Shown here: positions 4,363-62,276 of the stretch, piece by piece
Layout of the letters: each line of letters opens with the position of its first letter
Position numbering within the stretch: the stretch's first letter is position 1
Origin: a virus
Virus record (IMG/VR): IMGVR_UViG_3300008954_000034
Coordinates: 1-64,000 of that record
Strand: one strand, 5' to 3'
Length of the DNA: 64,000 bases
Notes under the pieces: model-generated
Database searches by the model: none
Told to the model about the DNA's origin: nothing
What the model saw: the letters and a program-made list of their open reading frames with translations, nothing else
Made by a program: the position numbers and the translations under genes

Positions 4363-5205
4363 CTATTCTACCTTCAAGTACAATCCGTACCCTGAACACC
4401 AGCTTTCGTTATCAGCCCACAACCTAGAGTATATGATATTGTCCTCAAGGTTGAGCACAGAGAATACTTTGCTGGTATCTTCAAACGTGTCGAAGAAACC
4501 GATACGCGCCCATTTGAGCGATTCAAGCTGGATGGTATAAAGTGCCCGCTCCTCCTGATTCACAACGGCGCTGAACTTCTTATCGAGAATCGTGCTTGGA
4601 ACCCCTGCAATGTAGTTCTGTATGATCTCCTTACCAGACTTAACCACATAGCTTCCGGGCGGTAAGTAGGTCTCCCAAACCCCACGACTGTCGCTGTAAG
4701 CCGACGAGACAAGCCGGTCAGTGACGATATTATGGAAGTCAATTCTACGACCAGAGAGACCTCGCCCTACAGTTGGGACTCGACCCGGAAACACATACAG
4801 CCTATCCCTGTAGCTAACAATCCGCCCGGCAAAGTACTCCACGTCCTCGTTTCCAAGTGCAAGAACACGCTCACCAGCAAAGGTCATCCTGACGACCATG
4901 ATATTGGTTGAGCCAGTTACCTGTACAATTGTGTTCAGAAGATCAACCGCCGTATCCTGATCGTAAACGGTCGTCCACGTTGTTCCACTGTCGGCTGAAA
5001 CCTCAATGGTGAAGTTCTTCGATGCGTCGTTAAAGAAGTAAGACGACATCAGGAACGCGGTCACGGTATTCCACTCGTCATCGTTCCCTGACGCGTGGTC
5101 TTCATCGACATTGAAATTATACGGCGCAGAGATGTATACCAGCCCACTTGAATTGATGACTGGTATTGTGTACCGATCAGATCTTGCTCGGAGTGGTGCG
5201 GCCAT
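4363..5205 (-). CDS. Probable virion (tail/fibre) protein, unknown
   Basis: It has 280 residues, beta-rich throughout, with Gly/Ser/Thr-rich loops typical of phage adhesin-side proteins. The start overlaps the previous stop as TAATG, so it is probably translated by coupling. No catalytic motif is seen. Residues 165-200 (RGVWETYLPPGSYVV) look like the small beta-sandwich repeats seen in many tail proteins. The role is inferred from the neighbours. Confidence 0.6.
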   Translation of the reverse strand: MAAPLRARSDRYTIPVINSSGLVYISAPYNFNVDEDHASGNDDEWNTVTAFLMSSYFFNDASKNFTIEVSADSGTTWTTVYDQDTAVDLLNTIVQVTGSTNIMVVRMTFAGERVLALGNEDVEYFAGRIVSYRDRLYVFPGRVPTVGRGLSGRRIDFHNIVTDRLVSSAYSDSRGVWETYLPPGSYVVKSGKEIIQNYIAGVPSTILDKKFSAVVNQEERALYTIQLESLKWARIGFFDTFEDTSKVFSVLNLEDNIIYSRLWADNESWCSGYGLYLKVE

Positions 5206-13063: not shown

Positions 13064-14143
13064 TCACTCCACCTTCGATGTTCCGGACAACACTTCATCC
13101 AAACTACGCTGCAGCTGGCGAAGGCTGGCTGTGTTCATTGGTGGTCCACTCGTCGGCCCGGCACCTGCAACCGGCTGTCGCATTCCAATGATCAGATCAA
13201 TGAGACTCTCCAGCTTAGCGACCAGCGTATCGCCCATAACCGCCCACTCTTCTGCGGCCCGACCAAGGTATATCTCCGCCGCGTCGATGATGATCTTACC
13301 AGCTTCAACATCGACTTCCACCGTCGTTACAGGCTCAGCCCCTTCCCCGGGAGCTCTACCGAACCACCCCTTCTTAAACTGTAGGGCTATCTTTCCCGAC
13401 TGTGTGATGTTGATCAGGGTAACTGGGTCCGATTCCTCGTCTGGGGCCACGTGAACCTGAACAACTACGTAGTCACCCGCACCGGCCCCTGCGTCAATAT
13501 CGTTGAAGTCATTAACAGCATCATCTTCGTCGTTCGCCGGGTTTCCAAAGGTCATCCGAGTGAAGGCACCGTTACCATCACGATAGTGCCTCGACTCAAT
13601 GATCAGTCGTCCCTTATAATCATAGTAGACACGGGCACCCTTTCCGGACTCCTTGTTCCACTCTCCAACACCATGCCACGTCATCGGGTCAGATCGAATT
13701 GACGACTGGTTCAGAACCTCCCCGGGTCGAAGCTCAGGTAAAATCCCAGCCTCAATCAGCCGTCGAATACTCCGCCATCGTGTAAATCCACCAACCACGA
13801 GTGGGGCAAGGTCCACTCCGACGTAAACAACCAGCGCCATCTGATTAACCATTGGAATCGATCCTGAGAACCCGAAATGGTTAATCGCCGAGAACAGGTA
13901 TGGAACGTTTCTCAGTGTCCCTTCCCGGGTCATCAAAAGTACTTCTACAGTAAACGATGTCCCTGACGCCACAGCGTCGAACTCCGTCGACTCTTCGCCC
14001 TTCTCGTCGATACCGGGATCAACATCGACCACGCGCTCGACCTTGGTAATAACACCCCAGTCGAACGTCGACTTGCCCGGCATCAGCCCGGCATTCCGCT
14101 TAGTAAGCGGGAGTTTAAGTGGTGATCCGGAAGGAATAGTCAT
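13064..14143 (-). CDS. Baseplate spike protein (gpV-like)
   Basis: It has about 359 residues from the ATG at 14143, which overlaps the hub gene as ATGA. The N-terminus has an OB-like pattern (STFDWGVITKVERVVDVDPG; PMVNQMALVVYVG). The C-terminus has repeated short strands, then AEIYLGRAAEEWAVMGDT and a helix KLESLIDLIIGM, a typical tail of gpV-type spike proteins. Such trimers form the membrane-piercing tip. An alternative ATG seven codons upstream has no better ribosome site. Confidence 0.7.
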   Translation of the reverse strand: MTIPSGSPLKLPLTKRNAGLMPGKSTFDWGVITKVERVVDVDPGIDEKGEESTEFDAVASGTSFTVEVLLMTREGTLRNVPYLFSAINHFGFSGSIPMVNQMALVVYVGVDLAPLVVGGFTRWRSIRRLIEAGILPELRPGEVLNQSSIRSDPMTWHGVGEWNKESGKGARVYYDYKGRLIIESRHYRDGNGAFTRMTFGNPANDEDDAVNDFNDIDAGAGAGDYVVVQVHVAPDEESDPVTLINITQSGKIALQFKKGWFGRAPGEGAEPVTTVEVDVEAGKIIIDAAEIYLGRAAEEWAVMGDTLVAKLESLIDLIIGMRQPVAGAGPTSGPPMNTASLRQLQRSLDEVLSGTSKVE

Positions 14144-15738
14144 GCAGCCAGAATCTCCTCCCATGGATAAACCAACTCTTCACCAACACTATGTGCATAA
14201 CGGCACGTAATAGTTGTTGATGTTCCATTTGATGGTGTTGTGGTCTGTCCGATATCAGTAATCAACCCCACCTGCGCTCGTGGAATATATACGAAGTTCC
14301 GATTGAGCCGCAGGTCCGGTCTATTCTCCAGTGACACTGAAAACGCGTGGGCCTGCGCGTTCATTTGAGTCCGTGCGGCCTTGGCAAACGCGTCGAGAAC
14401 AGTCAGATCTGATGAGAGATCGTACTCCATTAGAAGGTTAGGAAGATTGACTTCTCGCAGCCCCAAGTGCAGCAACTCCCGTTCGTCGGCGACGTCGATC
14501 CCAGTCCGATTCAATAGGGTGAGATCGTTATTCAGATCTAGCGCTGGGTTATGCATTGACTGCTGCACAGTCAGTCGAGTCGAAGCGATCTGGGACTCAT
14601 CAAACGTGTACTTGAACTCTTTATATGACGCATCCCTGTTACTGAGATAGTAGTTCAAGCCGTGGTCCCATGTACCATCCAACCCCTGCACCAGACCATC
14701 TTTATCAGCTGATGGGAACCCGCCGTACCGTGGATACTCATGGCGAAGGGTACCTACCTGATCCACATAGATAAGTGACATCGTTGTTTGTGCGATTCGA
14801 TTCAAGATGGACAGGGCGGGCTCTGAGTCGACCTTATACAGTTCGAATCTGCTCCTGAGGATGAGCTGGTAAACCCGCCCCGTATCCGTGAAGATGTCGT
14901 CGTAGTAGGCCCGGAACAGGGGATTGTTGTAGAACGCACTCCATGGTGGGCTGTCCTGCGAACGATTCTCTTGCCATCCTTCTAAAATATGCCTGTCGTC
15001 GTTACGGGAGTCGTACATCTTGAACAAGTCAAGCTCCACCGCAACGTTATGATTACCGTCTGGATTTACGTAAGACCAGAATGGACTAGTACTTTCACCG
15101 CCAATGTTCAAGACGGTATTCATCTTCTCTACGATAGCCTTGTACAGGTTCGCGGGGTTGGACGTTGCGAAGATGTTATCGTAGGCAAGCGACTGATCCT
15201 GAGTTCTTGTGAGCAGGGTGTCATAGCGGTCGCGCTCGGACAGGTTGCGAAGGCCAATAACAATCGGAGCAAACTGCATCACCCGCCTGAAGTCCTTTGC
15301 AGAAATCACAAGGGCTGGGTCCATGCCCGGTCGGTCAGTGTCAGTGTATCCTGTAACAATACCTGAGAACCCGGGGTACCAAACTCCGTCCCTCCCCTTG
15401 TAATCCACCCAAATGAAGTCCATCGCATAGGTGAATGGAAACAGGATACTGTCAGACAGATCGTCGTAGCTATCGGGGGTCTTCATTAACGCAATAGCAC
15501 GCTTCAACTCAGCGATCTGGTCTGACTCAACTGACTCAGACGCAGCCCGTTGTATTCCCTTGAAATAAATGAAGTTCTTGTTCTTGAGAATCACAGTGGC
15601 GCTGCCCGTCCCAGATACAGATACACTTGACGTGACGCTTTCGTAAGCGCCAACGTGGATGATCTCCTTCCGGGTAAAGTCCGACCGGTCGGTTACAACC
15701 AGTGTGATCCGGGCCTCAGCGCGAGAGTCAAGCACCAT
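14140..15738 (-). CDS. Baseplate hub protein (gp27/gpD-like)
   Basis: It has about 532 residues. A strong AGGAGG precedes two candidate starts: ATG at 15738 (three bases away) and GTG at 15735 (six bases away), so the true start may be the GTG. Residues 100-170 contain FTYAMDFIWVDYKG and GIVTGYTDT, the beta-barrel pattern of hub proteins. The C-terminus has FVYIPRAQVGLITDIGQ, like the late control D/gp27 family. It lies between a tail adaptor gene and the spike gene, the usual hub position. Confidence 0.65.
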   Translation of the reverse strand: MVLDSRAEARITLVVTDRSDFTRKEIIHVGAYESVTSSVSVSGTGSATVILKNKNFIYFKGIQRAASESVESDQIAELKRAIALMKTPDSYDDLSDSILFPFTYAMDFIWVDYKGRDGVWYPGFSGIVTGYTDTDRPGMDPALVISAKDFRRVMQFAPIVIGLRNLSERDRYDTLLTRTQDQSLAYDNIFATSNPANLYKAIVEKMNTVLNIGGESTSPFWSYVNPDGNHNVAVELDLFKMYDSRNDDRHILEGWQENRSQDSPPWSAFYNNPLFRAYYDDIFTDTGRVYQLILRSRFELYKVDSEPALSILNRIAQTTMSLIYVDQVGTLRHEYPRYGGFPSADKDGLVQGLDGTWDHGLNYYLSNRDASYKEFKYTFDESQIASTRLTVQQSMHNPALDLNNDLTLLNRTGIDVADERELLHLGLREVNLPNLLMEYDLSSDLTVLDAFAKAARTQMNAQAHAFSVSLENRPDLRLNRNFVYIPRAQVGLITDIGQTTTPSNGTSTTITCRYAHSVGEELVYPWEEILAA

Positions 15739-24373: not shown

Positions 24374-25239
24374 CGGTTTACACTGAACTCCGTCATCTGG
24401 CTTTCAAGATCATCCAACATGTCCTGATATTCTTGTGTGAAATGTGAACTATCTCCTGAAAATTCAGTCCCGAGTTCGGGCTCAAACGCCGATCCAGCCA
24501 CTTGAAACCCAAGCCCTTCTAAGTTATTTGACGCGTCCTCTAACCCGTAAATGACACCATCACGAAAGAAATGTTTCCCCGAGTAACCGGGATGATACCA
24601 ACTCAACCCAGTCGGATTATACTTAGACGGACGTCCAATTGACGCCTCGGTAATAGTCCTGTAAAAGATCTCGTCGCCGACTACCTCGGAAGTCCTGCCG
24701 CCACTCGTCTTCCGTGTCGACTTGCCCGGGTCCGTCACAAAGGGTGTGGCTGCACTCTGCCCTTTTGCTCCTCCGGCGTACGGTGTTCCGGGGCCTGCAA
24801 ACTTAACCCGGGACACACCATGAATAACACGCCCGGTCCGTGGGTTTACTCGCTGACCTTGAACCTTGATCAGCGGTATAGTCTTTCCAACCAGCCACTT
24901 CATCGGCTGGGTCTTTACCCCGTACTCCTGATAGACCAAGTACGCCGCTTCCTCATCGACATAAATATCTACATGCTTGTCAAGGGCCTGAAACTGCACG
25001 TTCTGTGCGCCGCGTCCCGTCTGGTGGATGAACTCAATGTTCCTACCGTCGCGTCCGGGCTGCGCTCCTGCCATAATTGCCCGAATGTTCTTCTGGCATA
25101 CAAGTCCGATCCGGTACAGCAACTTCCTAATCGCCTCGTCCCACTGGGCTTGATCGGAAAGCCGCAGCCATGTGTCGGGGAGTGAAACAATCTTGATCTG
25201 TACCCCGTACTCTGGAAGTGGTACGGACGGGGTAAACAT
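24370..25239 (-). CDS. Neck/tail-completion-like protein, unknown
   Basis: It has 289 residues and overlaps the stop of the 2093-residue gene as TGATG. The N-terminal 110 residues resemble head-tail joining proteins (WDEAIRKLLYRIGLVCQKN, YLVYQEYGVKTQPMKWL). A Gly/Arg-rich basic part follows, then an acidic, helical C-terminus. The position between connector and tail-terminator genes supports a neck role; the family is not certain. Confidence 0.5.
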   Translation of the reverse strand: MFTPSVPLPEYGVQIKIVSLPDTWLRLSDQAQWDEAIRKLLYRIGLVCQKNIRAIMAGAQPGRDGRNIEFIHQTGRGAQNVQFQALDKHVDIYVDEEAAYLVYQEYGVKTQPMKWLVGKTIPLIKVQGQRVNPRTGRVIHGVSRVKFAGPGTPYAGGAKGQSAATPFVTDPGKSTRKTSGGRTSEVVGDEIFYRTITEASIGRPSKYNPTGLSWYHPGYSGKHFFRDGVIYGLEDASNNLEGLGFQVAGSAFEPELGTEFSGDSSHFTQEYQDMLDDLESQMTEFSVNR

Positions 25240-28200
25240 CAGTATTCATCCCCTCGAATCACCTCATTTGCGTAGTTCTTCAAGTCGCTCAGTACATCTG
25301 CACTCAATTCGTCTGAGTACGAGGGGCTTGAAATCTTGGCCCCACCGTCGTCCAAGAGTTCAACCTCGACCGGTGTTTGCTCGTCCCAGTCGGTGAAGGT
25401 ACCGCCGCTGTTGAGTGCGTCGAGGAATGTCTCTAGTGAAGAATAGTCGTTCCTCTCCCACCCGGCTGTCATGGTGTATGACGGAGTCTGGACTTTTATA
25501 ATGCCGCCCCAGTCATATGGCTCAAAGGCTACTTCCGTGTTCGCTGTTGCCTCTAACTGCGCATCCTTACTAATCTTGAACATCATCACTGTTGAAGTTC
25601 CGTCCATTAGCGTCCCGGGAACATAGGGCTGGTCTTCATCTTCAAGGATGAGCCCAAGATCCGCTCCAATGTCTCGTGCAGTCTGCGCGTGGTCGTTGTC
25701 AATGGTAAGATCTACGTAGCCGGGTTTGTCGGACATCTCAACCACCACCTGCTGAACACCAGCTGACTCAAGCTCAGACTCAAAGTCCTCGGCAATGGAA
25801 GCTCGCCGCTTGTGAGCAACGCTCAGGAACCCACTCCCATCGTCGTTGACCAGTCCTTGGCTTACCGCCTCTGAAACTGCTTTGTCAATCTCGGCCTGAT
25901 CGGTAAAGTCCGCGTCGAAGAAGGTGTAAAGGGACGCCGGGGCGACTGTGGCACCACCGCCCTCGTTCTCATTCAAGATTCGGACGGCGTTGGCAATGCC
26001 CTCCGGAGAGATGGTGGGGAAGTCCATGTCGCTTGGATCGCCACCGACACCAAGTTCAGCTACATTACCCGCATCCTTCAGTAGGAAGTATGTCTCTCCG
26101 GGTCCGTCAGTGAATGGGGCTGAGAAAAGGACACCACCTCCGGCCACACCGACTTCAGTATATCCCTCCTGATCTAACCAGCTCTCGGCTTCTTCAGCAG
26201 ACGCAAAGTCTTGATATGGATTAGAGGCTAATTGGTCGCCGTTTTCGTTGGATTCCCAAATATTAACAGACGCCTGAGATTCAGTCGATCCCATCACCGT
26301 GGTACGCTTGTACTCTTCCCAGAATGCTGTTCCGCGTGGAGACCCGGTTTCATTTGCGTCGGCCTTTTTACTGGAGGTGTACTCATCCCAACCTGAGTCA
26401 ATGTCAATCATCGTGTCAGTTCCGATGCTGGCGGTAGGAAAAAGTACCCATTCGGTAGCAGTAAAATACTGAACCTCGGTGTCTAGAGCGTACCCACCCA
26501 TGTCATTAGAATTAAGCCAGTCTTCCATAGTGGCTAAACTCGACTTGGGCATGGAAACGGTGTAAATCAGATTACCGTGGTCGTCGGTTTCTTTCACCCC
26601 ACTCTGAGTATTAACCTCTGGAATTGCAGATTCAATAGCCTGCACTACGTTTGCAAATGCAGTTTCTCGGTCCTGAAGATACTGAGTGTCGGATATCTCA
26701 TCTTCATCGGGATGGTCCTCTTCCCAGTCATGCTCTGCAAAGAGGATAGTGAAGCCTACCGCAACTTCATCCCCGTCCTGAGCACGTCGTACCCGTGTTG
26801 CCCGCATCTGCTTCCGAGTCCGGGAGATGGTAATCATCTCCATACCACCATGATCGTCCTGTATCCACACATTCGGGTAGAACTGGTCGTTCTCCATGTG
26901 GTGCTTGATGGCCTCATCTCGATCTTCGAAGATGCGTCCGTCCGACTTAACGCGGAACCCGGTCTCAACTCGTGTCAGCCGGGGGATGATGTTCTCTTCT
27001 TCCCACCGGGTCCACTCATCCATGCTCATGCTCAAGTCATCGGTGTCAGTTCCGGTCGCTTCCCCGTAAAGTTCGGTCTCGTGCTCTACCGCATCAACTT
27101 TGTCATTGTGACCAGAGTACTGAGTCCCGTCGCTGGTGATCCATGCACCGTCATAGGTCTCCTCAATGACGATGTCGCCTTTCTGGTAAGCATCAGTTCC
27201 GTCAAAGACAATGTCATCCGGCTCGGCTTCGACTACATCCTCGCCGTCGTAGGCCCGCTTGCTCTTGCTACTGAGAAAAGGGTCGGTTACCAGACCTCCG
27301 GCCTGTTCCATTATACTGTCCATAACTCGAACAACATCGTCATCATACTCGTCACGAACCCAGAGGGTTGTTATATCCCCAGATTCCTCAAAGTAAAAGT
27401 TCTCAGACCCAACACCCGCTTCCTGTAAAGCCTGAGAAACAGTGTCTTGTCCAATATCTGTGCTGAAATCATAACCAGTTTCTGCACCCGGGTACATGCC
27501 AGCACGTTTGGTCCGACGATTCCTACGGCTCAGAAAAGGAGGGTCGGTTACCTGACCTCCACCGCTACCTTCCATGAAAATGTCAAGTAGGTCTGTTACC
27601 CTTTCAACATCCTCATCTTGAATCCAAAGCGTCATACTGGCAGCGTCGCCCTCAAGTGAATAGTCACTATCAGGAATACCAGCACCGGTCAGTACCTGTG
27701 CAAGGTCCGCAATGTCCGTGTCGGGGCTGAGACTGAAGCTAGTCTGCCCAGCACGTTTGGTCCGACGATTCCTACGGCTCAGAAAAGGACCGTTATCTTG
27801 TACCTGTACTGATCCGTATAGCTGCTGGAGTTCGTTCTCAGCTTCCTCTTCCGAGTCATATGGACCTACCCAGTCAGTTTGATCCATGTACCCGGGTGCA
27901 GAAAGCTGGGCGCACCACCCCTCTTTAAAGTAAATCTCATCTTCGTAGATGTCGTCACCCTCAACGTAGTCCCGAATACTGTCCAGCCACGTTTGGAACT
28001 CTTCGCTTTCCGGGTCTTTATTGGTGGGAAGACCTGTCAACTCGGACGGTAGAACAAAGCCACCACTATAAGCGTAACCCACCACCCACGTATCATACAT
28101 AGTAACGGGTTCCATAAAGTCTGCGTTCTTGTGCTGTTCTTCCCCGTCTGCCGACGCAATCCAAATACGAGGCCCAACCATGTCAGCCAGTTTCTTGCCG

Positions 28201-31200
28201 TGCTTCTTGCCGTAGTAACTGACCGGCGAGCAGCAGTCATAGTAATCGTAATAGTCTGACGGTCCCCACCATGAAGCGAATGATCCGAAGTTGTCTTGGA
28301 TGTCGGCGTAGCTCCAACCTGCTGTCTTGTCGAGCAGATGGAGAACTGTGCTTGCGGCCACGGTACCCTTGAGCCTGAAGTACATGTAGACCCGGTTTGT
28401 GCTGCTGACCGCTTTGTCGGCCTCGGCCTCGGGCTTCAGCAGGTCGTTAACCGCCTGATCTCCCTCGTCCCAGCCACCTGTAATGCGGCGGATGATGTTG
28501 CTGATCGTGTACCAGTCAAGCTCGCATAGCATCTCTGCGCCAACCGACAGAATGTTGAGTTCAGAACCGGCCAGCGATTCAAGCGCCTGCTGGCGTCCGG
28601 CCTCGCTCAGGTGAGTCCACCATTCCCATGCGTCCCACGAGTAGTAAATGCTCTCGGTCGACTCCTTGGACTCTGCGTCCTCGACCCGAGCAAGCAGCTC
28701 CTCCGGGAATACGGTGTTCAAGTCGGTCGGTGGGTTACCGTTCGCAAGGTATGAGCCCTCGAGCCGGATGTGGTAAGTTACGTCATCGTCACCTGCGGCC
28801 TCCTCGGGTCCGTAACTGGCAACCCGCACAGTGCTCGATGTTCTCGATGCGTAGGGTTCAACATCCTTCATGGCTGTAAGGACGGCCTCAATGTCGTCGA
28901 GGCTGTCAGTGGAAATGGCAGATTCGAGCTTTGATGTCCATTCATCTTCCATGACCGTGGTCAGGAAGTTGGAAAGTGTACGATCCAGCTCGTCCCTTGC
29001 CGTCCCGTCCTCATCGTCTCGCGCCCTTTGAATCAGCGCAAGAATCTCGGTTGGGTTTTCGGTAACGAGGTCGGTGGCCTCATGTGTGCTTGCCATCATT
29101 GTTGGTTCAGTTCCGTAGGCCAGCATATGAAGTTCTTCAAATGTAAGATTGTGCCTTTCGGCAACATCTTTCATTTTTTCATCGTGGTCTACAACATTCC
29201 CAACAGAGTCTTCTACAATCTTAACCCACTCGCGCATTGCCGCACGTTCATCGTCAGTTTCTGGAACTGGAGCCCACTCATACGAGGTCTTCGCAGCCGT
29301 GGTAGCACCCCTTGACGAATAGTGTAGTACTCTTGATGCGTACGGTTCAACGGTCTGCATGTCCGTGAGAACAGCTGCAATCTCGTCAAGATTATCGGTG
29401 GAGATGGCGGCTTCGAGCTTTGCCGTCCAGTCGTCCTCCATAACCGTGGTCAGGAAGTTGGCAAGTACCTGATCCAGATCTCCCTTTAATGACCCATCTT
29501 CATCTTCTCGCGTCTCCTGAATCAGCGCAAGAATCTCGGTTGGGTTTTCGGTGAAGGGGTCGCTGGGTACATGTGTATTTGCCGTGGTCTGAACGTACTT
29601 GAGAATTGCCTCGATCCGGTCAAGGTCACGGTCAAGTAGTGCACTTTCCATCTTATCCCATGACTCTTCGGTCAGGGCAGATCCAAATTCACCATGTCCC
29701 ATCGCATCGCTGACGTTCTGAAGAAGAGCATCGACGTACATACTGTCTGTAAGTGCCTTATCAAGGTCGGCGAGAAGGGAAGTGATTGTGCTGGCCGCAT
29801 CGGCTTTCTTCCGACGTGAAGATCGAAATTCCGTTGTGTCATAACTGTCAAGGAATTCATCCCACCCGAATTTAACTTCCTCGTCGTCTTTGTCCATCTT
29901 AACCGTAAATTCTGACCCGGTGTTCTCGGTAACAACACCTGTGTCTCCAACAGCATAAATTTGCTCTGGGTTGGCAGTCATACTGAATGCAGTGATAGTT
30001 TCAACCTTGGTGCCAACTGGAAAGTACTCATCAGTAATTTCCTTGAGCGGTACACCACCCGGTTTCCGTTCCTCAGCGATCTGCAACCATGTGTCAGCGC
30101 TGGCACCACGCTTCCGTGAGGTTATGAGCTTTACATCCTTCAGGGCGTCAACGTCCATGTACACTTCATATACTTCTTCAGCCTCAATATCGTCCGCAGC
30201 CTGTCGAGCGTCTTCAATGGCTGTCTCAACACTGGCGTACTCTTTCATGACCATCTGGTCACCAGCTCCGTTCGCCAGAATGAGCTTGGACTTGGTTCCG
30301 TACAAGGTGATGAGATCATCGCCCCAAGACGCCAGAACCTTGGCGTTCTTGATTTCACCTGCCCGTGACCCACTTGCCACTAGGTCAGCGGCAAGAACCG
30401 CAAGTTCAATGTCACCATCGAGAACCTGAACCGTTGGATAAGCATAGCTCACAACCGTCAACTTGGTCTTTGCTGCGATGATACCAAGGTTATCTTGTGA
30501 GCTGCGGGAAGTAGAATACCATTGCGGTCGTCCTGAAACTAACAGAAAGTGGACAGGACCACGGGCGTCCCGACCAGCACCGTTGTCTTCCACCATATAT
30601 CCAGCGTCCTCAAGGATATTCGTGGCCTCCGTAGACTTATTGGGGTCAATAGATACATCCACAAAGCCAAGCCCACTACCTTGATCTGAAACATCAAAGT
30701 CATCTGTAATTGACTCTAGCAGTTGCGTGACTTCAGATACATCAGCACTCGTAGCCACCAACGACGCAATAACGTCCCGGGAGAGAACGTAGGTATCGCC
30801 GGGGAAGATGCGTGACCCCATACCGGTGACTGGGGCTCCGTTGTCAACGCAGATGTGGTCTGTCTCGCCGTTCAAGTAATCGGGACAGGCCAACACACGC
30901 TGCTTCCCGAGCTTGGACTCACGGGCTGTCTTACCACATGTGTCACACACCGGGTAAATGGGTGGGAACACCTGCATCATGCCGCCGTTCCGGGAAAGAG
31001 TCACGGTCCGACCTGTCGACCGGGCAATACGAAGGGCGCTGACATAAGCCTGCGCGTCACTGCCATAGAAGGTAGCGATAATCTCACGTCCGTCCGCAGT
31101 GTCGAACATATCAGTTGCACCGATGTGGCGCTGGACAGAAGCTGCAACCTTCGCAGCTAAGTGTGATTCAACGCCAACGACGGCAACTCGGATGGATCTG

Positions 31201-31520
31201 GTATCGTCGTTTGCATCGATGTCCAAGAAGCTGCTGGCACGCTTCCGTGCGGCCTTCTTGCTGGTTCGGGGGTTACCGCCAATCTCGACAGTCCGACCAC
31301 CACGATGTGCAAATCTGGCTTTCATAGTCCTTCTCCCGGTGAGGGGGAATAGCTCCACCCCTGTTACCTCTGCTATCAACTCCCGAAATGCCGCCTCGTC
31401 AATTGGGTCTTGCTCGAGAATAGCATCCATACGGGCAACTTGATCTTCGTCTGCGTCCCGAAAGAACTGGGCCATTTCCATTACCCCAAGATTTCCCGGG
31501 TATGAAAGCCCACGTCTCAC
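25239..31520 (-). CDS. Giant modular virion-type protein, possible polyprotein
   Basis: It has 2093 residues. The GTG start overlaps the previous stop as GTGA and has GAGG seven bases before it. It is acidic, but broken by short basic segments ending in Ala: at about 93-95 (KRA), 571-573 (KKA), 1255-1257 (KRA), 1338-1340 (KRA), 1421-1423 (KRA), 1578-1580 (RRA), 1718-1720 (KKA) and 1905-1907 (RRA), plus SRKRGA near 470. A zinc-ribbon-like cluster is seen at about 192-224. Residues 656-735 and 819-898 are a strong internal duplication; 1246-1325 and 1329-1412 are another. Residues 258-330 and 1906-1985 share a small alpha/beta domain, and 501-565 looks like an SH3/KOW-type barrel. It lies between neck genes, so a virion or core role is likely. 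Cleavage at the basic sites is inference. Confidence 0.7.
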   Translation of the reverse strand: MRRGLSYPGNLGVMEMAQFFRDADEDQVARMDAILEQDPIDEAAFRELIAEVTGVELFPLTGRRTMKARFAHRGGRTVEIGGNPRTSKKAARKRASSFLDIDANDDTRSIRVAVVGVESHLAAKVAASVQRHIGATDMFDTADGREIIATFYGSDAQAYVSALRIARSTGRTVTLSRNGGMMQVFPPIYPVCDTCGKTARESKLGKQRVLACPDYLNGETDHICVDNGAPVTGMGSRIFPGDTYVLSRDVIASLVATSADVSEVTQLLESITDDFDVSDQGSGLGFVDVSIDPNKSTEATNILEDAGYMVEDNGAGRDARGPVHFLLVSGRPQWYSTSRSSQDNLGIIAAKTKLTVVSYAYPTVQVLDGDIELAVLAADLVASGSRAGEIKNAKVLASWGDDLITLYGTKSKLILANGAGDQMVMKEYASVETAIEDARQAADDIEAEEVYEVYMDVDALKDVKLITSRKRGASADTWLQIAEERKPGGVPLKEITDEYFPVGTKVETITAFSMTANPEQIYAVGDTGVVTENTGSEFTVKMDKDDEEVKFGWDEFLDSYDTTEFRSSRRKKADAASTITSLLADLDKALTDSMYVDALLQNVSDAMGHGEFGSALTEESWDKMESALLDRDLDRIEAILKYVQTTANTHVPSDPFTENPTEILALIQETREDEDGSLKGDLDQVLANFLTTVMEDDWTAKLEAAISTDNLDEIAAVLTDMQTVEPYASRVLHYSSRGATTAAKTSYEWAPVPETDDERAAMREWVKIVEDSVGNVVDHDEKMKDVAERHNLTFEELHMLAYGTEPTMMASTHEATDLVTENPTEILALIQRARDDEDGTARDELDRTLSNFLTTVMEDEWTSKLESAISTDSLDDIEAVLTAMKDVEPYASRTSSTVRVASYGPEEAAGDDDVTYHIRLEGSYLANGNPPTDLNTVFPEELLARVEDAESKESTESIYYSWDAWEWWTHLSEAGRQQALESLAGSELNILSVGAEMLCELDWYTISNIIRRITGGWDEGDQAVNDLLKPEAEADKAVSSTNRVYMYFRLKGTVAASTVLHLLDKTAGWSYADIQDNFGSFASWWGPSDYYDYYDCCSPVSYYGKKHGKKLADMVGPRIWIASADGEEQHKNADFMEPVTMYDTWVVGYAYSGGFVLPSELTGLPTNKDPESEEFQTWLDSIRDYVEGDDIYEDEIYFKEGWCAQLSAPGYMDQTDWVGPYDSEEEAENELQQLYGSVQVQDNGPFLSRRNRRTKRAGQTSFSLSPDTDIADLAQVLTGAGIPDSDYSLEGDAASMTLWIQDEDVERVTDLLDIFMEGSGGGQVTDPPFLSRRNRRTKRAGMYPGAETGYDFSTDIGQDTVSQALQEAGVGSENFYFEESGDITTLWVRDEYDDDVVRVMDSIMEQAGGLVTDPFLSSKSKRAYDGEDVVEAEPDDIVFDGTDAYQKGDIVIEETYDGAWITSDGTQYSGHNDKVDAVEHETELYGEATGTDTDDLSMSMDEWTRWEEENIIPRLTRVETGFRVKSDGRIFEDRDEAIKHHMENDQFYPNVWIQDDHGGMEMITISRTRKQMRATRVRRAQDGDEVAVGFTILFAEHDWEEDHPDEDEISDTQYLQDRETAFANVVQAIESAIPEVNTQSGVKETDDHGNLIYTVSMPKSSLATMEDWLNSNDMGGYALDTEVQYFTATEWVLFPTASIGTDTMIDIDSGWDEYTSSKKADANETGSPRGTAFWEEYKRTTVMGSTESQASVNIWESNENGDQLASNPYQDFASAEEAESWLDQEGYTEVGVAGGGVLFSAPFTDGPGETYFLLKDAGNVAELGVGGDPSDMDFPTISPEGIANAVRILNENEGGGATVAPASLYTFFDADFTDQAEIDKAVSEAVSQGLVNDDGSGFLSVAHKRRASIAEDFESELESAGVQQVVVEMSDKPGYVDLTIDNDHAQTARDIGADLGLILEDEDQPYVPGTLMDGTSTVMMFKISKDAQLEATANTEVAFEPYDWGGIIKVQTPSYTMTAGWERNDYSSLETFLDALNSGGTFTDWDEQTPVEVELLDDGGAKISSPSYSDELSADVLSDLKNYANEVIRGDEY
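27499..27540 (-). repeat. 42-bp direct repeat, copy 2
   Basis: This copy is identical to 27748-27789, offset by 249 bases (83 codons, in frame). It encodes the basic linker FLSRRNRRTKRAG that starts each module. A diverged third copy (FLSSKSKRA) occurs near 27255-27285. Confidence 0.9.
27748..27789 (-). repeat. 42-bp direct repeat, copy 1
   Basis: Exact partner of 27499-27540 inside the 2093-residue gene. The near-perfect DNA identity of the linker, against diverged modules, suggests recent duplication, conversion or strong selection on the linker. Confidence 0.9.
28827..29066 (-). repeat. Internal 80-residue duplication, second copy
   Basis: It encodes TENPTEILALIQRARDDEDG and ends near DVEPYASR; roughly three quarters of residues match the copy at 29316-29555. 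It includes a 32-base stretch identical to the other copy. Confidence 0.8.
29316..29555 (-). repeat. Internal 80-residue duplication, first copy
   Basis: It encodes TENPTEILALIQETREDEDG and ends near TVEPYASR. The repeat is predicted to be a helical bundle with the core NFLTTVMED shared by both copies. Confidence 0.8.
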
Positions 31521-52299: not shown

Positions 52300-55200
52300 T
52301 CAGATACCACTACACCCCGTGTCCGTTCCACAGTTCGGGCACCGGTGGCATGCTCCGTTTGGAACCATTATAGTTCCACACCCACCACACACAGGGCCTG
52401 CGTCTGCGGAAACCATAGCCGGAACCGACTGGATGGGTTCCATGGAAACGTTGTGCATCGTTACGTTCGGCATTGCTGGACGAGACGCAGCAAACGATAC
52501 GTTTTTAAATTCACCGTTACCGTTACCATTTCCGACAAGGTACTCTTCCGGTAACTCTTGGAAGGTGTGCATCTCCGGTACTTCAACTGGTGGGTTGTAT
52601 GTCAGGTACAGCCACTTGAAAATGTAATCTATAATACTGTCGGCTTCCTTGATGTCTTGGTTGGGGGTAAATCCATGCGGCTCAAATCTCATACCAGTAA
52701 ATCGGTCTACAAAGGTCTGCAATGGAATACCATGCTGGAACCCCAACGTAACCGCAGCGGCAAAGGCGTCAAGCAGCCCAGACAACGTTGACCCCTCCTT
52801 CGATATCACAACCATCAACGAAGATGGGAGACCGTCCGGATACTTACTCACCGACACGTACCCCTCGTGCCCGGAAACGTTGAACTTGTGCGTGATTGCC
52901 TTGGCGTCCCCGATAACCGGACGTGGTAGTGGAATGACAACTTCGTACTCCGGAGTTGCGTCATCACCCTCGCTCTTCGACGCGTAGGGCTGAATTGCCT
53001 TACACCCGTCACGATAAATGGACATCACCTTGATGCCCATTTCCCAGCCCTTCCAGTACACCTCTTCGATGTCCTCGACCGTGGCCGTATTTGGCATGTT
53101 GATAGTCTTCGAAACCGCTCCAGATAGGAAAGGTTGCACAGCTGCGACCATCTTCACATGGTCCATGTAGTGGATACTGCGCTCCCCGTTAAGCGGGGGA
53201 ATGGAACAATCGAATACTGGCAGGTGGTCATCCTTCAAATCTGGGCAGTTCTCGATGGTACCGTTGTCCGTCACGTAGTTAGCAATACTCGCAACGGCAT
53301 CGTCATCGTATCCGAGTGTGCGGAGGGCCTCGGGAACCAACCGGTTAACCATCTTCATCTCGCCGCCACCCACCAGACGTTTGAACTTAACAAGACCGAA
53401 CTCCGGTTCAATGCCGGTGGTGTCAGCGTCCATCATAAACGCAATAGTGTTGTGGCTCACAAACCCAGATACAACATAGGTGTTATTCATCGGGACTGAA
53501 AGGTCAACGGTCTTTTGAATACCAGCTTGGGTATTGGAAACTACAACATCGAAGTATACATCTCCGAGACTCAAAATCGCTGCGATTTTAGTTTTTCTTA
53601 GCTGCGGGTACTTACTTATCTTATCCCTTGCCCATAGTAGATTTATCGCCGCAGTTTTTCTTACTGCAATGTCCTGCCTTACTTCACTTGGAAGACCAAC
53701 AGACGCATCATAAAAGTCTTGCTGTATCACTGCATTCCTTATTGATATCCCGTGAGATTCATCGCCTGTACTGGTCGAAAGTCCGTCAGTGAGTCGGATT
53801 TTCTTCCTAGATGAAATAAATCCTATCTTATCAGCGTACACCCGTGCCGATCTTACGTTTGCCACACGAACTTCGTACCGCTGCTTATCACCAAATCTAT
53901 CTCCACTTTCTGGCTGTTGCCTCCGTGTAGTCATAATACCCAGAGACTCTAAAACAACCTGAACCTGATTAACAAGAACAGGACTCACTGTTGAAAACGC
54001 TACGCTAGGAGTTCCTTTCACCAATGTTACTGTACCATCAGCGTCAAATAACCCACGGATGAAGGCACAAACAACACTTGTGCGAGACTTAAGAATGGAA
54101 ATGGGTATTGATGCACCAAACGCCCCCTCCCCGTGGTTTCCTCTTGGTTTATCTGCAAGCCTGTTTGACTTAAGCCAGCGGACTAGTCTCCGAGATGGAA
54201 TCGTTACAGTATGACAGCCTGATCGTTCTTCAGACTGTATATGAACTCCAATACTTTCTGCCCATGACTCAAAAACTGAGTCTATATCTCTGTTATTATT
54301 AGGCACGGTAAGACAAAGACCATAGTTATCCTTAGTGTATCCATTGCCAACATAGTAACCAATGACCTCAGCCAGACGTTCATCAAGGACGTCTGGAAAA
54401 GTAATAGAAGATTCATTTCCATGTACTGGTGTTGAATCACCATGAAGAACTGTATAGGGCTTATCCATCAAAAGTTCTTCATGCCCACCAAGCCTGAAAA
54501 CCGCGAGATCGCCCGGCTTGATATCTTGGAACTTCCTCCACACATACTCACCACATTCATCAATAATACGAATCTTGTGGCCGTAAGTACCTACTAGCGC
54601 ATGCCCACGCTTCGTGGTAATTTCCATCACGTGGTCTTCTCCGTTAATGAAAAACTGAGAAGACTTCTCTACCGACTTCTCCTGCATGATATTAAGATCA
54701 AGGTCCTGCCACTTATCACCGTTTACGTCTCCAAGTACTCCCAGCGGAAGAATACCAGCAGATGACAATAACATAGTATCCGTAGCCAAACAGCCTGTAG
54801 GAGCCAGCAGCGTAAGCTGACCATTTCGAATCCCAGCCCCATGGGCAATAGAATTGCATACGTCAGCAAGGATGGTATTTGCCATGTCATATATCGGAGC
54901 AGTAAATCCATCAAGATCAAGGCCAAGACTCTCTGCGGCTGTCCGATGCTTTTCCATAACCCGCAAGTACGGGTCTCTATTCTCTTCAAACAGATCAAAT
55001 GGTCCGAGTTCATCTGCAACCTGACAGCTCATACTGGCGGCTGACGCGTGCATCAGCGCCGTTATAGCAGCGGCAACCCGACGTCCGTCCTCTGACCCAT
55101 ACGGAAGGCCCAGAACCATAAGCAGCCCACCGAGGTTGGCGTAACCAAGGCCCAACGGCCTGTGTGCCTTGCTGTTCCTTGCAATCTCCTCGGTCGGGTA

Positions 55201-56391
55201 GTCGACATTGGCAACCATGATCTCTTGTGCAAGGATGATGAGTTCCGATGCTCTACGGAAACGGTCCACTGCAAACGCACCGTCTTCGGTCTTGTACCTG
55301 ATGAGGTTATGGCTGGCAAGGTTACAGGCAGAGTTATTGATGTAGTGATACTCAGCACACGGATTACTGGCACCGAAGTAATGAGTGTTACTGACTGGGT
55401 TCCACATGTTTATCAGGGTGTCAAACTGAAGCCCCGGGTCTCCGGTCTCCCATGCGTTCTCTGCGATGGACCGGAAAAGGTCGGCTGCGTGGATCGTGTC
55501 TGACGTCTCTCCGTCGGTCACCCGTTTGAGATCCCAGTCTGACTTGTCGGCCACGGCCCGCATGAAGTCGTCTCCAACCCGAACACTGTGATTGGCATTC
55601 TGGTAGGCTACAGTTCCGTACGCATCGCCGTCAAGGCCACTACTATACCCAGCCGCTAAAAGATCACGGGCCTTCTGGTCTTCCTTGGTCTTGCACTTAA
55701 TGAAGTCTACGATGTCTGGGTGATCAATGTTCAGGATGATAATCTTTGCCGCACGTCGAGTACGGCCACCCGACTTAATTACACCAGCAAAGGCGTCGTA
55801 CCCCTTCATAAAGCTCACCGGGCCACTGGCCTTACCACCAGTTCCGGAAAGAGACTCGGTAGAACCACGAAGGGTGCTGAGGTTTACCCCAGCACCCGAC
55901 CCGCCTTTGAATATGATTGCCTCGTCCCGGGCCAGCTTCATTATTGATTCCATGCTGTCATCAACCTCGTTGATGAAGCATGCACTGGCCTGCTGAGGAC
56001 CGTCCGCACCAATATTAAACCACACCGGACTGTTGAAGGCAAAGTACTGGTTGATCAACAGCCAAGTCAGCTCATCAGAGAATGCCTCGGCGTCGTCAGC
56101 ATGGAAGTAACCGCCGTGTAAACCCCACTGCGTAATGGTACTGACAACCCGATTAATAACCTGCTTGATCGACGTCTCGCGCTGGGACGTTCCGGGTTCA
56201 CCACGAAAGTACTTAGAAACCGCGATGTTACTAGATTGATGTGACCACGTAATCGGAAATTCTACGTCTTCTTGCTTGAACACCGCTTCACCGTCAGCTC
56301 CGATAATCTTCGCGTCCCGCTTTTCCCATTCAATTTCGTCGTATGGATGAATGTCCGGATTGGAAAAGAGACGAGAGATACTTAACGCCAT
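52300..56391 (-). CDS. nrdJ: Class II ribonucleotide reductase with intein
   Basis: 1363 residues from ATG at 56391 (GGAG seven bases upstream); 915 remain after removing a 448-residue intein. Reductase marks: SACFINEV, NPCAEYHYINNSACNLASHN with the N-x-C-x-E active-site core, and TIAFMMDADTTGIEPEFG on the finger loop. The C-terminus has a TSCPD domain (GYVSVSKYPDG to IIDYIFKWL) and a zinc ribbon CGGCGTIM ... CPNCG. This layout belongs to adenosylcobalamin-dependent enzymes, which make deoxynucleotides without oxygen. The intein sits between APTG and TIAF in the active-site loop, so activity needs splicing. Confidence 0.92.
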   Translation of the reverse strand: MALSISRLFSNPDIHPYDEIEWEKRDAKIIGADGEAVFKQEDVEFPITWSHQSSNIAVSKYFRGEPGTSQRETSIKQVINRVVSTITQWGLHGGYFHADDAEAFSDELTWLLINQYFAFNSPVWFNIGADGPQQASACFINEVDDSMESIMKLARDEAIIFKGGSGAGVNLSTLRGSTESLSGTGGKASGPVSFMKGYDAFAGVIKSGGRTRRAAKIIILNIDHPDIVDFIKCKTKEDQKARDLLAAGYSSGLDGDAYGTVAYQNANHSVRVGDDFMRAVADKSDWDLKRVTDGETSDTIHAADLFRSIAENAWETGDPGLQFDTLINMWNPVSNTHYFGASNPCAEYHYINNSACNLASHNLIRYKTEDGAFAVDRFRRASELIILAQEIMVANVDYPTEEIARNSKAHRPLGLGYANLGGLLMVLGLPYGSEDGRRVAAAITALMHASAASMSCQVADELGPFDLFEENRDPYLRVMEKHRTAAESLGLDLDGFTAPIYDMANTILADVCNSIAHGAGIRNGQLTLLAPTGCLATDTMLLSSAGILPLGVLGDVNGDKWQDLDLNIMQEKSVEKSSQFFINGEDHVMEITTKRGHALVGTYGHKIRIIDECGEYVWRKFQDIKPGDLAVFRLGGHEELLMDKPYTVLHGDSTPVHGNESSITFPDVLDERLAEVIGYYVGNGYTKDNYGLCLTVPNNNRDIDSVFESWAESIGVHIQSEERSGCHTVTIPSRRLVRWLKSNRLADKPRGNHGEGAFGASIPISILKSRTSVVCAFIRGLFDADGTVTLVKGTPSVAFSTVSPVLVNQVQVVLESLGIMTTRRQQPESGDRFGDKQRYEVRVANVRSARVYADKIGFISSRKKIRLTDGLSTSTGDESHGISIRNAVIQQDFYDASVGLPSEVRQDIAVRKTAAINLLWARDKISKYPQLRKTKIAAILSLGDVYFDVVVSNTQAGIQKTVDLSVPMNNTYVVSGFVSHNTIAFMMDADTTGIEPEFGLVKFKRLVGGGEMKMVNRLVPEALRTLGYDDDAVASIANYVTDNGTIENCPDLKDDHLPVFDCSIPPLNGERSIHYMDHVKMVAAVQPFLSGAVSKTINMPNTATVEDIEEVYWKGWEMGIKVMSIYRDGCKAIQPYASKSEGDDATPEYEVVIPLPRPVIGDAKAITHKFNVSGHEGYVSVSKYPDGLPSSLMVVISKEGSTLSGLLDAFAAAVTLGFQHGIPLQTFVDRFTGMRFEPHGFTPNQDIKEADSIIDYIFKWLYLTYNPPVEVPEMHTFQELPEEYLVGNGNGNGEFKNVSFAASRPAMPNVTMHNVSMEPIQSVPAMVSADAGPVCGGCGTIMVPNGACHRCPNCGTDTGCSGI
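53449..54792 (-). mobile_element. Intein with LAGLIDADG endonuclease in the reductase
   Basis: 448 codons in frame. Block A is CLATDTML at the start; block B is ALVGTYGHKI; endonuclease motifs are LAEVIGYYVGNG and CAFIRGLFDADGTV; the end is YVVSGFVSHN, with Thr as the +1 residue. Cys1, TxxH, the final His-Asn and a +1 Thr complete the splicing set. The insertion point is a conserved catalytic loop, as in other reductase inteins. Confidence 0.93.
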
Positions 56392-56453
56392 GGGACATCT
56401 CCTATGGTACAAGATTTCTCAAGTGTTGTAGATAACCGAACGTAAGACTATGA

Positions 56454-60126: not shown

Positions 60127-60441
60127 TTACTTTGGTTCGGTCGCCTGTGTCAGGGCGGCAAGATTTACGTGATATGTCTTGGAAGTCCAAGAGTTGCCTT
60201 CGTAGTCAAGTTCAAAAACCAGCTCGGTCTCGCCCTTGGCGATCTTCTCGCCGGTGATCCGGCAGCGGGCTCGGCCAGTTGCGGTCTTTATCTCGATCAG
60301 GCTGTTCGGGTTGAACCAAGGTGTGCGGCTGATGATGGTGTCCTTATCTCCCCGCACACTGTTGCGATGGTTTTCATAAGCCTCTGCAAGTTCGTGAATC
60401 TCGTTTGCGGGCAGGGTCTTGAATTCGGTCTTGGTTTCCAT
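60127..60441 (-). CDS. Small unknown protein (PARP-finger-like pattern)
   Basis: 104 residues from ATG at 60441, with GGAGG seven bases upstream; the longer frame upstream crosses the promoter and tmRNA terminator and is rejected. Residues 55-100 read IEIKTATGRARCRITGEKIA and then SKTYHVNLAAL, which recalls a PARP-type zinc finger, but most cysteines are missing. Function unknown. Confidence 0.6.
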   Translation of the reverse strand: METKTEFKTLPANEIHELAEAYENHRNSVRGDKDTIISRTPWFNPNSLIEIKTATGRARCRITGEKIAKGETELVFELDYEGNSWTSKTYHVNLAALTQATEPK

Positions 60442-60478
60442 GGGGCGTCCTCCGGGGTTGTTTACTTTGCACATGTAC

Positions 60479-60507
60479 ATGATAACACAAAGCGAGCCGG
60501 AAAGCAA
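60479..60507 (-). promoter_or_regulatory. Promoter TTGCTT-N17-TATCAT nested in tmRNA terminator
   Basis: -35 TTGCTT and -10 TATCAT are 17 bases apart on the minus strand, followed by GTACATGTGC. The -35 box sits inside the terminator hairpin of the tmRNA gene. Confidence 0.75.
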
Positions 60508-60538
60508 CCTCATGTACATGAGATGCTCTCCGGCTCTT
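60492..60538 (-). terminator. tmRNA terminator
   Basis: A stem GAGCCGGA with TCCGGCTC (60494-60501 and 60529-60536) encloses the palindrome CTCATGTACATGAG, then a CGCTTTG run on the minus strand. It lies 13 bases after the tmRNA CCA end. Confidence 0.7.
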
Positions 60539-60550
60539 AAGCGAGGATAC

Positions 60551-60899
60551 TGGTGGAGACGTGGGGAATCGAACCCCAGTCCGAATGGTTTTACCAACCC
60601 CATTCTACGTGCGTAGTCTACTCAGACCGCAGACAGGTCATCACCGTGTATTTTGTGCTCCGGGACACGATAAAACCGGATCAACACAACCCAGAGGATT
60701 GAAGTGCCGACATTTGTCGACCGGAAATCCTGAGTCGCTATCGGCTTGCTACTCAGGGTCCGGGAGATGACTACTGTTTAAGCAGCCGCTCTCAAGGGAG
60801 TTTGCTCTTCAGCAATTATGGATGTTCTGCCCTCTTGCAGTTGGACAGCCACTGGCACGCATGAAATCAACTTACCACCCGTCGAAACCAATCGTCCCC
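60551..60899 (-). ncRNA. ssrA: tmRNA (ssrA), phage-encoded
   Basis: 349 bases with CCA encoded. The acceptor stem GGGGACG (5') pairs with CGTCTCC (3') with one G-U pair. The 5' part has TTTCGACGGG, the tmRNA hallmark; the 3' part has TGGGGTTCGATTCCCCA as the T-arm and CACGTAGA before it. A tag frame GCT GAA GAG CAA ACT CCC TTG AGA GCG GCT GCT TAA lies at 60778-60813 and encodes AEEQTPLRAAA (ATT just before may be the resume codon). It rescues stalled ribosomes by trans-translation. Pseudoknots are likely but I did not fold them. Confidence 0.93.
60778..60813 (-). other. tmRNA tag-peptide reading frame
   Basis: It encodes AEEQTPLRAAA and then a TAA stop. Ending in Ala-Ala fits recognition by ClpXP-type proteases, but the end is RAAA rather than the usual ALAA. 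The resume codon is taken as GCT; ATT is possible. Confidence 0.75.
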
Positions 60900-60927: not shown

Positions 60928-61428
60928 CTATTCACCGTCAGCTAGTGTACGCTGTGAATTCTTAATCACCGTCTGCACTGAATCAGCTGCGGCTGTCATT
61001 CCAGCCCGGTAGTACAAGTTACCTAAAAACCAGCGGAAGAAGTTAATGCCTTGTAACGTACCGGCAGTAGCCTCTTCCCCCTGTAAGAGCAGCTGTTCCT
61101 CCCATCTCGGAAGGATCAGCTCCATCGCAGTTACAGTCACAATAGGAGAAACTGATCTGTGGTCGGCGAGCTGGTAATAGCAATATACAGTCACCGCTCT
61201 ATCACGGAGTGCGTTGATCGACTCAGGTCCAAACAACGTGACTGCCAGCTCAGCAGCTGCACTCGAGTTAGTATAAGCAACATAAAAGTTCTCGTCAAGC
61301 GCATCGTAGTAAGCAGTCACACGTAGTGACTTATACAAGAGCTCGTCCATACTCAGTTCTTGCTCTGGTTGGCCCAGAACCATGGAAGTGAGCATTAACG
61401 ATAATAGCAATGTCAAGATGTACTTCAT
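60928..61428 (-). CDS. Exported protein with signal peptide, unknown
   Basis: 166 residues. The N-terminus KYILTLLLSLMLTSMVLGQP is a signal peptide with likely cleavage before Gln or after Gly. The mature part is helical with many Tyr and Leu. AGGA precedes the ATG by nine bases. It lies between tRNA-Pro and tmRNA. It may act in the envelope, for example in superinfection exclusion, but no motif supports that. Confidence 0.55.
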   Translation of the reverse strand: MKYILTLLLSLMLTSMVLGQPEQELSMDELLYKSLRVTAYYDALDENFYVAYTNSSAAAELAVTLFGPESINALRDRAVTVYCYYQLADHRSVSPIVTVTAMELILPRWEEQLLLQGEEATAGTLQGINFFRWFLGNLYYRAGMTAAADSVQTVIKNSQRTLADGE

Positions 61429-61449
61429 GGTCTTCTATCCTGTTAGACT

Positions 61450-61514
61450 GAGACGGTGCAGCCCTATTAGCAACCAAGCACGTGGCTGGTGCAGGATGGA
61501 TACTGCACCGTCTC
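61450..61514 (-). repeat. 12-bp perfect inverted repeat upstream of the exported protein
   Basis: GAGACGGTGCAG (61450-61461) pairs with CTGCACCGTCTC (61503-61514). A second imperfect stem (GCAACCAAGC with GCTGGTGC) lies in the 41-base loop. It lies within the 242-base leader between tRNA-Pro and the exported-protein gene and could be a regulatory structure. Confidence 0.7.
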
Positions 61515-61575
61515 TTAATCGAACCCGGTGCCGCGAGATTCCACCTCGTGGAAAGGTTCAATGGGTTGTCAAAGT

Positions 61576-61666
61576 CTGGTGGTCGACTGGTTCTCCGGAG
61601 GAGTCGTTCCCCAGCCTCTGGAACAGAGCCGCAGCGCTCCTCACACTACGGTTGCCCCACCACCAG
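61576..61666 (-). repeat. Long-range inverted repeat downstream of tRNA-Pro
   Basis: CTGGTGGT (61576-61583) pairs with ACCACCAG (61659-61666), enclosing inner stems such as GTTCC with GGAAC. It lies directly after the tRNA. It lacks a T-loop, so it is not a second tRNA. It may be a structured RNA. Confidence 0.5.
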
Positions 61667-61670
61667 TTTG

Positions 61671-61746
61671 TCGGAGATACAGGATTCGAACCTGTGGCCC
61701 CCTGCTCCCAAAGCAGGTGCGCTCTACCGGACTGCGCCAATCTCCG
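61671..61746 (-). tRNA. tRNA-Pro (UGG)
   Basis: 76 bases. Acceptor CGGAGAT pairs with ATCTCCG plus discriminator A. The anticodon arm is CCTGC-TTTGGGA-GCAGG with anticodon TGG; the T-arm is ACAGG-TTCGAAT-CCTGT. CCA is not encoded. It reads CCA and other Pro codons. Confidence 0.95.
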
Positions 61747-62276
61747 ATGAGGAGTCACCACTTGCCCCGTTGCCCGCGTTCGCGGTTCAGCCGCTCTGTC
61801 GCCTTAATCCCCGTTTCCGGTTGAGGCCGAGAGCCAACGTTGGGTTCGTGACAACCCCTGTCTGATTGTCAAAGTAACCTGCTGATAATACTACCTACAC
61901 CCCACATTACACCAATGCTGCGGGGAGGCCAGTACCGGTTACCAACCACCGCGCACTACAAAGGTTCATCTGACAGCCATCGACGCAGATGTTAGCGTCA
62001 GAATGGGTCACCCACTCCCACATTCCTCAATAGTATCCAACCGTAGTCAGCGCCAGAAAAGGAAAGTGTTAGTCTCCAGTTCTATTGATCTACGATCTGA
62101 GGTAGCAAGGACTCCACATCGTTCCACAGAACTTCGGACGGTCCTTGGTCTCGTATTCAGCAGGTTGTCAAAGAACGTTCCCGCTACTTGGTCCATCCAC
62201 ACGAGCGGTCAGCGTGGTTGTCGATGAGCGAGGCTATGCCATGGCTCGCTCTGGTACTAATATACGTTCAACCGGG
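61747..62276 (-). other. 530-base region without a gene
   Basis: No convincing coding frame. It holds two of three copies of CTTTGACAA (minus strand; 61866-61874 and 62165-62173, with a third at 61566-61574), spaced 300 and 299 bases. Small hairpins occur (GAGCGAG with CTCGCTC at 62226-62251, a terminator candidate for the gene ending at 62277; AAGGAC with GTCCTT near 62108-62147). It may hold processed RNAs. Confidence 0.5.

Follow-up and report, generated by a model that had tools for sequence, protein, structure and literature searches.

A complete one-piece tmRNA gene with an uncommon tag ending in a large myovirus

Introduction

tmRNA releases stuck ribosomes and marks their unfinished proteins for destruction. 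In most of the tags that it encodes, the antepenultimate residue is large, such as Leu or Met. By 2014 ten phages with tmRNA were on record, one of which has only the tRNA-like domain (PMC4131195), and huge phages carry both tmRNA and SmpB (PMC7162821). The closest described systems are large myophages with a one-piece tmRNA of their own, namely the Ceeclamvirinae mycobacteriophages (Bxz1 and its relatives, and Phabba) and Bacillus phage G (PMC4131195). The tmRNAs of the OM43 methylophage Melnitz and of pelagimyophages belong to myophages without an integrase (PMC9004378). A preliminary description of the locus analyzed here held that few phages carry tmRNA. This is roughly right for cultured phages: a 2021 count put tmRNA in 402 of 18,146 phage genomes (PMC9004378). 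Environmental viral contigs, by contrast, readily yield tmRNA genes.

The locus lies in a stretch of 64,000 nucleotides, hereafter the window, which is part of a 77,954 bp IMG/VR record. Like the first group, its carrier is a large myophage with its own one-piece tmRNA, and like the second it is a myophage in which no tyrosine integrase was found. The tmRNA of Melnitz is two-piece (permuted) and controlled by a glutamine riboswitch, whereas the present one has no riboswitch match in Rfam. The distantly related Phabba was tested here and carries tmRNA, but its tag is long (ANDNDATVTEADFAEIEAFANDSVLV, versus 11 residues here) and many tRNAs lie near its tmRNA, compared with one in the present phage. 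No clear nucleotide kinship was found between the two tmRNAs.

The tmRNA gene and its parts

At 60551-60899 the (-) strand carries, judged by its sequence, a complete tmRNA gene of the one-piece type, with the following parts.

60551..60899, (-): tmRNA gene (ssrA), one-piece, 349 nt (RF00023 and ARAGORN)
60893..60899, (-): acceptor stem 5' strand GGGGACG, G3 paired with U70 (sequence, pairing checked)
60827..60854, (-): pseudoknot 1, CAGU/ACUG and CUGUCC/GGGCAG (complementary strands, canonical position)
60778..60813, (-): tag frame AEEQTPLRAAA and stop, resume codon GCT (ARAGORN coding part 87-122)
60764..60793, (-): helix 5, in which the final tag codons (GGCUGCU, GAGA) pair downstream, with the UAA stop in the loop (pairing checked)
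60706..60763, (-): pseudoknot 2, CCGGA/UCCGG with CCUGAGU/ACUCAGG and GCCGAUA/UGUCGGC (pairing checked)
60644..60696, (-): pseudoknot 3, CUCUGGG/CCCGGAG and UCGUGU/ACACGG (pairing checked)
60616..60639, (-): possible small pseudoknot 4, GACC/GGUC and GUCU/AGAC (sequence and Rfam, weak)
60562..60578, (-): T arm TGGGG-TTCGATT-CCCCA (GGGGTTCGATTCCCC) (sequence, Rfam)
60551..60561, (-): acceptor stem 3' strand CGTCTCC followed by ACCA, with CCA encoded (sequence, Rfam, pairing checked)

An Rfam covariance search, as the preliminary description had suggested, gave a full-length match to RF00023 (model 1-374) of 122.2 bits (E 3e-47), far beyond chance and above the gathering score of 47. The score is moderate compared with the 163-186 bits of three bacterial tmRNAs. 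ARAGORN independently placed the gene ends identically and read the tag as AEEQTPLRAAA. The acceptor stem, UUCGACGGG, T arm, CCA and tag frame noted in the preliminary description are all found where it had placed them, on the (-) strand.

The locus resembles bacterial one-piece tmRNA (RF00023) in its overall architecture: tRNA-like domain with G3-U70, tag frame with a GCN resume codon, stems that could form pseudoknots, CCA, and stop codon within helix 5. It differs in its location in a phage genome and in the RAAA ending of its tag. The acceptor stem comprises 7 bp (GGGGACG/CGUCUCC), and its G3-U70 pair is the alanine identity mark of alanine tRNAs. The tag frame reads GCT GAA GAG CAA ACT CCC TTG AGA GCG GCT GCT TAA. 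UAAUU precedes the resume codon and retains the conserved A at position -4, which corresponds to A86, a near-essential base of E. coli tmRNA (PMC2481249). The complementary strands of pseudoknots 1 to 3 sit at canonical positions, as does the P2 stem by the pairing check, and the outer stem of pseudoknot 2 is also present in the Rfam alignment. Shuffled sequences reach an equally good knot in 12-30 of 200 cases (30 of 200 for pseudoknot 1); this single-sequence test has low power. The pseudoknots alone are not significant against shuffled sequence, and the identification of the tmRNA rests on the covariance match.

The tag ending

The preliminary description correctly noted that the tag ends in RAAA instead of ALAA. 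Ala occupies position -3 in place of a large residue, Arg occupies position -4, and the terminal Ala-Ala is kept. When IMG/VR was scanned with a pattern for the tmRNA 3' end, at least 120 loci were found, and 77 of those listed had a usable ARAGORN tmRNA (34 one-piece, 43 permuted). LAA ends 53 of these 77 tags, MAA nine, and AAA none, in a set that includes some host genes on prophage contigs (e.g., ANDENYALAA) and a few doubtful calls. A genome scan supplied 65 bacterial tmRNAs, which were picked by a 5' sequence pattern and are not a random sample; two of their tags end in AAA, one of these in RAAA (ANDNVELRAAA). The latter is the tag of the only full-length tmRNA in the genome of Deltaproteobacteria bacterium RIFOXYA12_FULL_58_15. 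That tmRNA shares the LRAAA ending with the phage gene but is bacterial, and nucleotide similarity between the two is low outside conserved elements. Thus, the RAAA ending is uncommon yet also occurs outside this phage.

Unusually long tags (21-31 residues) occur in tmRNAs on other viral contigs or phages (L024, L027, L035, L074, L127, and L134), some of which end in VTV, ACA, MVA, or VLV and not in LAA.

The carrier phage

By its gene content, the carrier is a large myovirus. The window and an overlapping record encode structural proteins (tail sheath, baseplate wedge, and portal), replication proteins (DNA polymerase, polymerase processivity factor, clamp loader, DnaB-like helicase, and UvsX-like recombinase), an endolysin, and RNase H. 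These genes place the tmRNA inside a phage genome and not in a host flank, and they bear out the earlier statement that it is phage-encoded. The sheath and portal show remote similarity to their counterparts in actinobacteriophages, Phabba and Skog among them, and the portal is nearest to that of phage G. Neither an SmpB gene nor a tyrosine integrase was found in the phage, which must therefore use the SmpB and AlaRS of its host.

An identical tmRNA gene is present in a second record, IMGVR_UViG_3300009008_000009 (127,741 bp, classed as linear), which shares 9,332 bases at 100% with the window record. As this is probably the same virus, it lends weak independent support to the tmRNA. At its ends the second record has a direct repeat of 119 bases, and from 26501 on the window matches the final 18,741 bases of this record, with a single mismatch. 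The record therefore wraps round, and the genome is probably complete at ~127.6 kb, with an exact length that is uncertain because the repeat starts in, and partly consists of, a 15-bp tandem array. A third record carries an identical tail sheath. Among named phages, no close DNA match was found to the tmRNA or to 40-64 kb of the window. Searches of IMG/VR for diverged relatives through the neighboring ORF, tail sheath, and DNA polymerase returned only records of the same virus.

The genome has several other features. A class II B12-dependent ribonucleotide reductase gene (52300-56412) contains an in-frame intein with a LAGLIDADG endonuclease domain. A GroEL-type chaperonin of 547 aa (PF00118, E 1.5e-69) is encoded at record positions 73914-75557 (13914-15557 of the stretch L002, whose positions plus 60000 are record coordinates). 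A single open frame of 2093 aa without a Pfam match spans 25239-31520.

In searches for the host, no genome was found with the tag pattern A-E-5 residues-RAAA, and BLAST of the tmRNA in seven genomes gave no match. The tmRNA 5' pattern matches mostly Planctomycetota, Gemmatimonadota, and deltaproteobacteria, although this pattern selects its own answer. In 392 genomes from a single phylum, to which the Phycisphaerae MAG L190 belongs, the best match of the phage tRNA-Pro has 86% identity, a value with no baseline from other phyla.

Genomic neighborhood

The tmRNA gene lies in a co-directional array of phage genes in which no bacterial neighbor was seen. Its surroundings are as follows.

61670..61746, (-): tRNA-Pro (UGG) (ARAGORN, Rfam)
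60928..61428, (-): upstream co-directional ORF, 166 aa, without a Pfam match, ending 28 nt before the tmRNA (ORF and Pfam search)
60494..60536, (-): strong 19-bp hairpin without a U tract, 15 nt past the tmRNA 3' end (fold z -5.2)
60127..60441, (-): downstream ORF, 104 aa, likely start at 60441 (GGAGG before ATG), with its own sigma70-like promoter

The tRNA-Pro, 770 nt upstream of the tmRNA, is the only other tRNA-type gene that ARAGORN identified in the stretches read. No convincing promoter was found directly upstream of the tmRNA. Within the hairpin beyond the tmRNA 3' end lie the palindrome CATGTACATG and the next gene's -35-like box.

This palindrome overlaps a recurrent sigma70-like promoter on the (-) strand, the first site being TTGCTT-17-TATCAT. 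The sites lie at 60472 and 63247 of the window and at 4429, 5812, and 16962 of L002, each ahead of an ATG that has a Shine-Dalgarno sequence. There is a second copy of the palindrome upstream of the -35 box at 60511, and near 65.85 kb a one-base variant; the exact palindrome is absent from the other genome stretches read. The arrangement looks like a set of repressor-controlled promoters. Additionally, 61429-62276 holds ~840 nt without a convincing gene except tRNA-Pro and without an Rfam match besides the tRNA. Its (-) strand folds unusually well at 61435-61565 (z -5.0), and 61565-61672 folds moderately well (z -2.7).

Proposed function and alternative explanations

The architecture of the gene suggests that it is very probably a canonical, functional-looking tmRNA of a large myovirus that would perform ordinary trans-translation through host factors and so aid infection. 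Counting against this reading are the failure to find a convincing promoter directly upstream and the pseudoknot strands that do no better than shuffled sequence. Host AlaRS would charge the phage tmRNA with alanine, as the G3-U70 pair predicts, and the charged molecule would bind host SmpB and enter ribosomes stalled on broken mRNA. Switching to the tmRNA frame at the resume codon GCT, the ribosome would then append A-AEEQTPLRAAA, in which the 11-residue tag follows the charged alanine, and stop at UAA. Host ClpXP, or a protease like it, would most likely degrade the tagged fragment by way of its terminal Ala-Ala. The phage tmRNA would add to or replace that of the host, and its likely benefit would be to keep up ribosome recycling when infection yields truncated mRNA. 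For another phage, tmRNA has been proposed to maintain the hijacked bacterial machinery or to tag host proteins so that their amino acids can be recycled (PMC9004378).

The preliminary description proposed that tagged products may be handled differently from those of host tmRNA. With weaker recognition by ClpXP, for example, or routing to another protease, the phage tmRNA would free ribosomes while the tagged proteins are spared or redirected. The rarity of AAA endings and the substitutions at -3 and -4 are consistent with this reading, and mutation of the antepenultimate Leu modestly raises the KM of ClpXP in E. coli (PMC7652416). However, the main determinant for E. coli ClpXP, the terminal Ala-Ala-COO- (PMC7652416), is intact, and the same LRAAA ending in a bacterium's only full-length tmRNA also counts against it. 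Different handling is possible, but an altered fate is unlikely, and the plainest expectation is a working degron that may be somewhat weaker. The stronger version, in which the LRAAA tag is a functional switch that permits rescue without the normal proteolysis of host tmRNA, perhaps mimicking the alanine tails of the RqcH pathway, is very improbable.

The gene could also be a passenger with no role in infection, a copy of host ssrA gained by recombination or imprecise prophage excision. Integration of prophages at ssrA and capture of ssrA fragments are known (PMC9004378), and the searches above recovered no diverged relative that has kept the tmRNA. Against such an origin, the gene is complete with all key elements intact, the phage has no tyrosine integrase, the array around it is co-directional and of phage genes, and no close match was found among the bacterial tmRNAs compared; a passenger is accordingly quite unlikely. 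Alternatively, the phage tmRNA might withstand a host nuclease that cuts host tmRNA or tRNA and serve as a defense-resistant replacement. Phage tRNAs that evade tRNA-targeting defenses are described (PMC10264068), and a tRNA-Pro lies nearby, but this reading seems a slim prospect.

Significance

Phage tmRNAs are already established, and the present gene, read as a canonical tmRNA, is a real but fairly ordinary addition to them. It contributes a clean one-piece example whose tag ending is rare, from a large myophage that has no SmpB and is probably complete. Environmental virus collections contain a diversity of tmRNA tags that is open to survey. If it is true that the tag changes the fate of its products, the gene would be a tool for host takeover at the level of translation.
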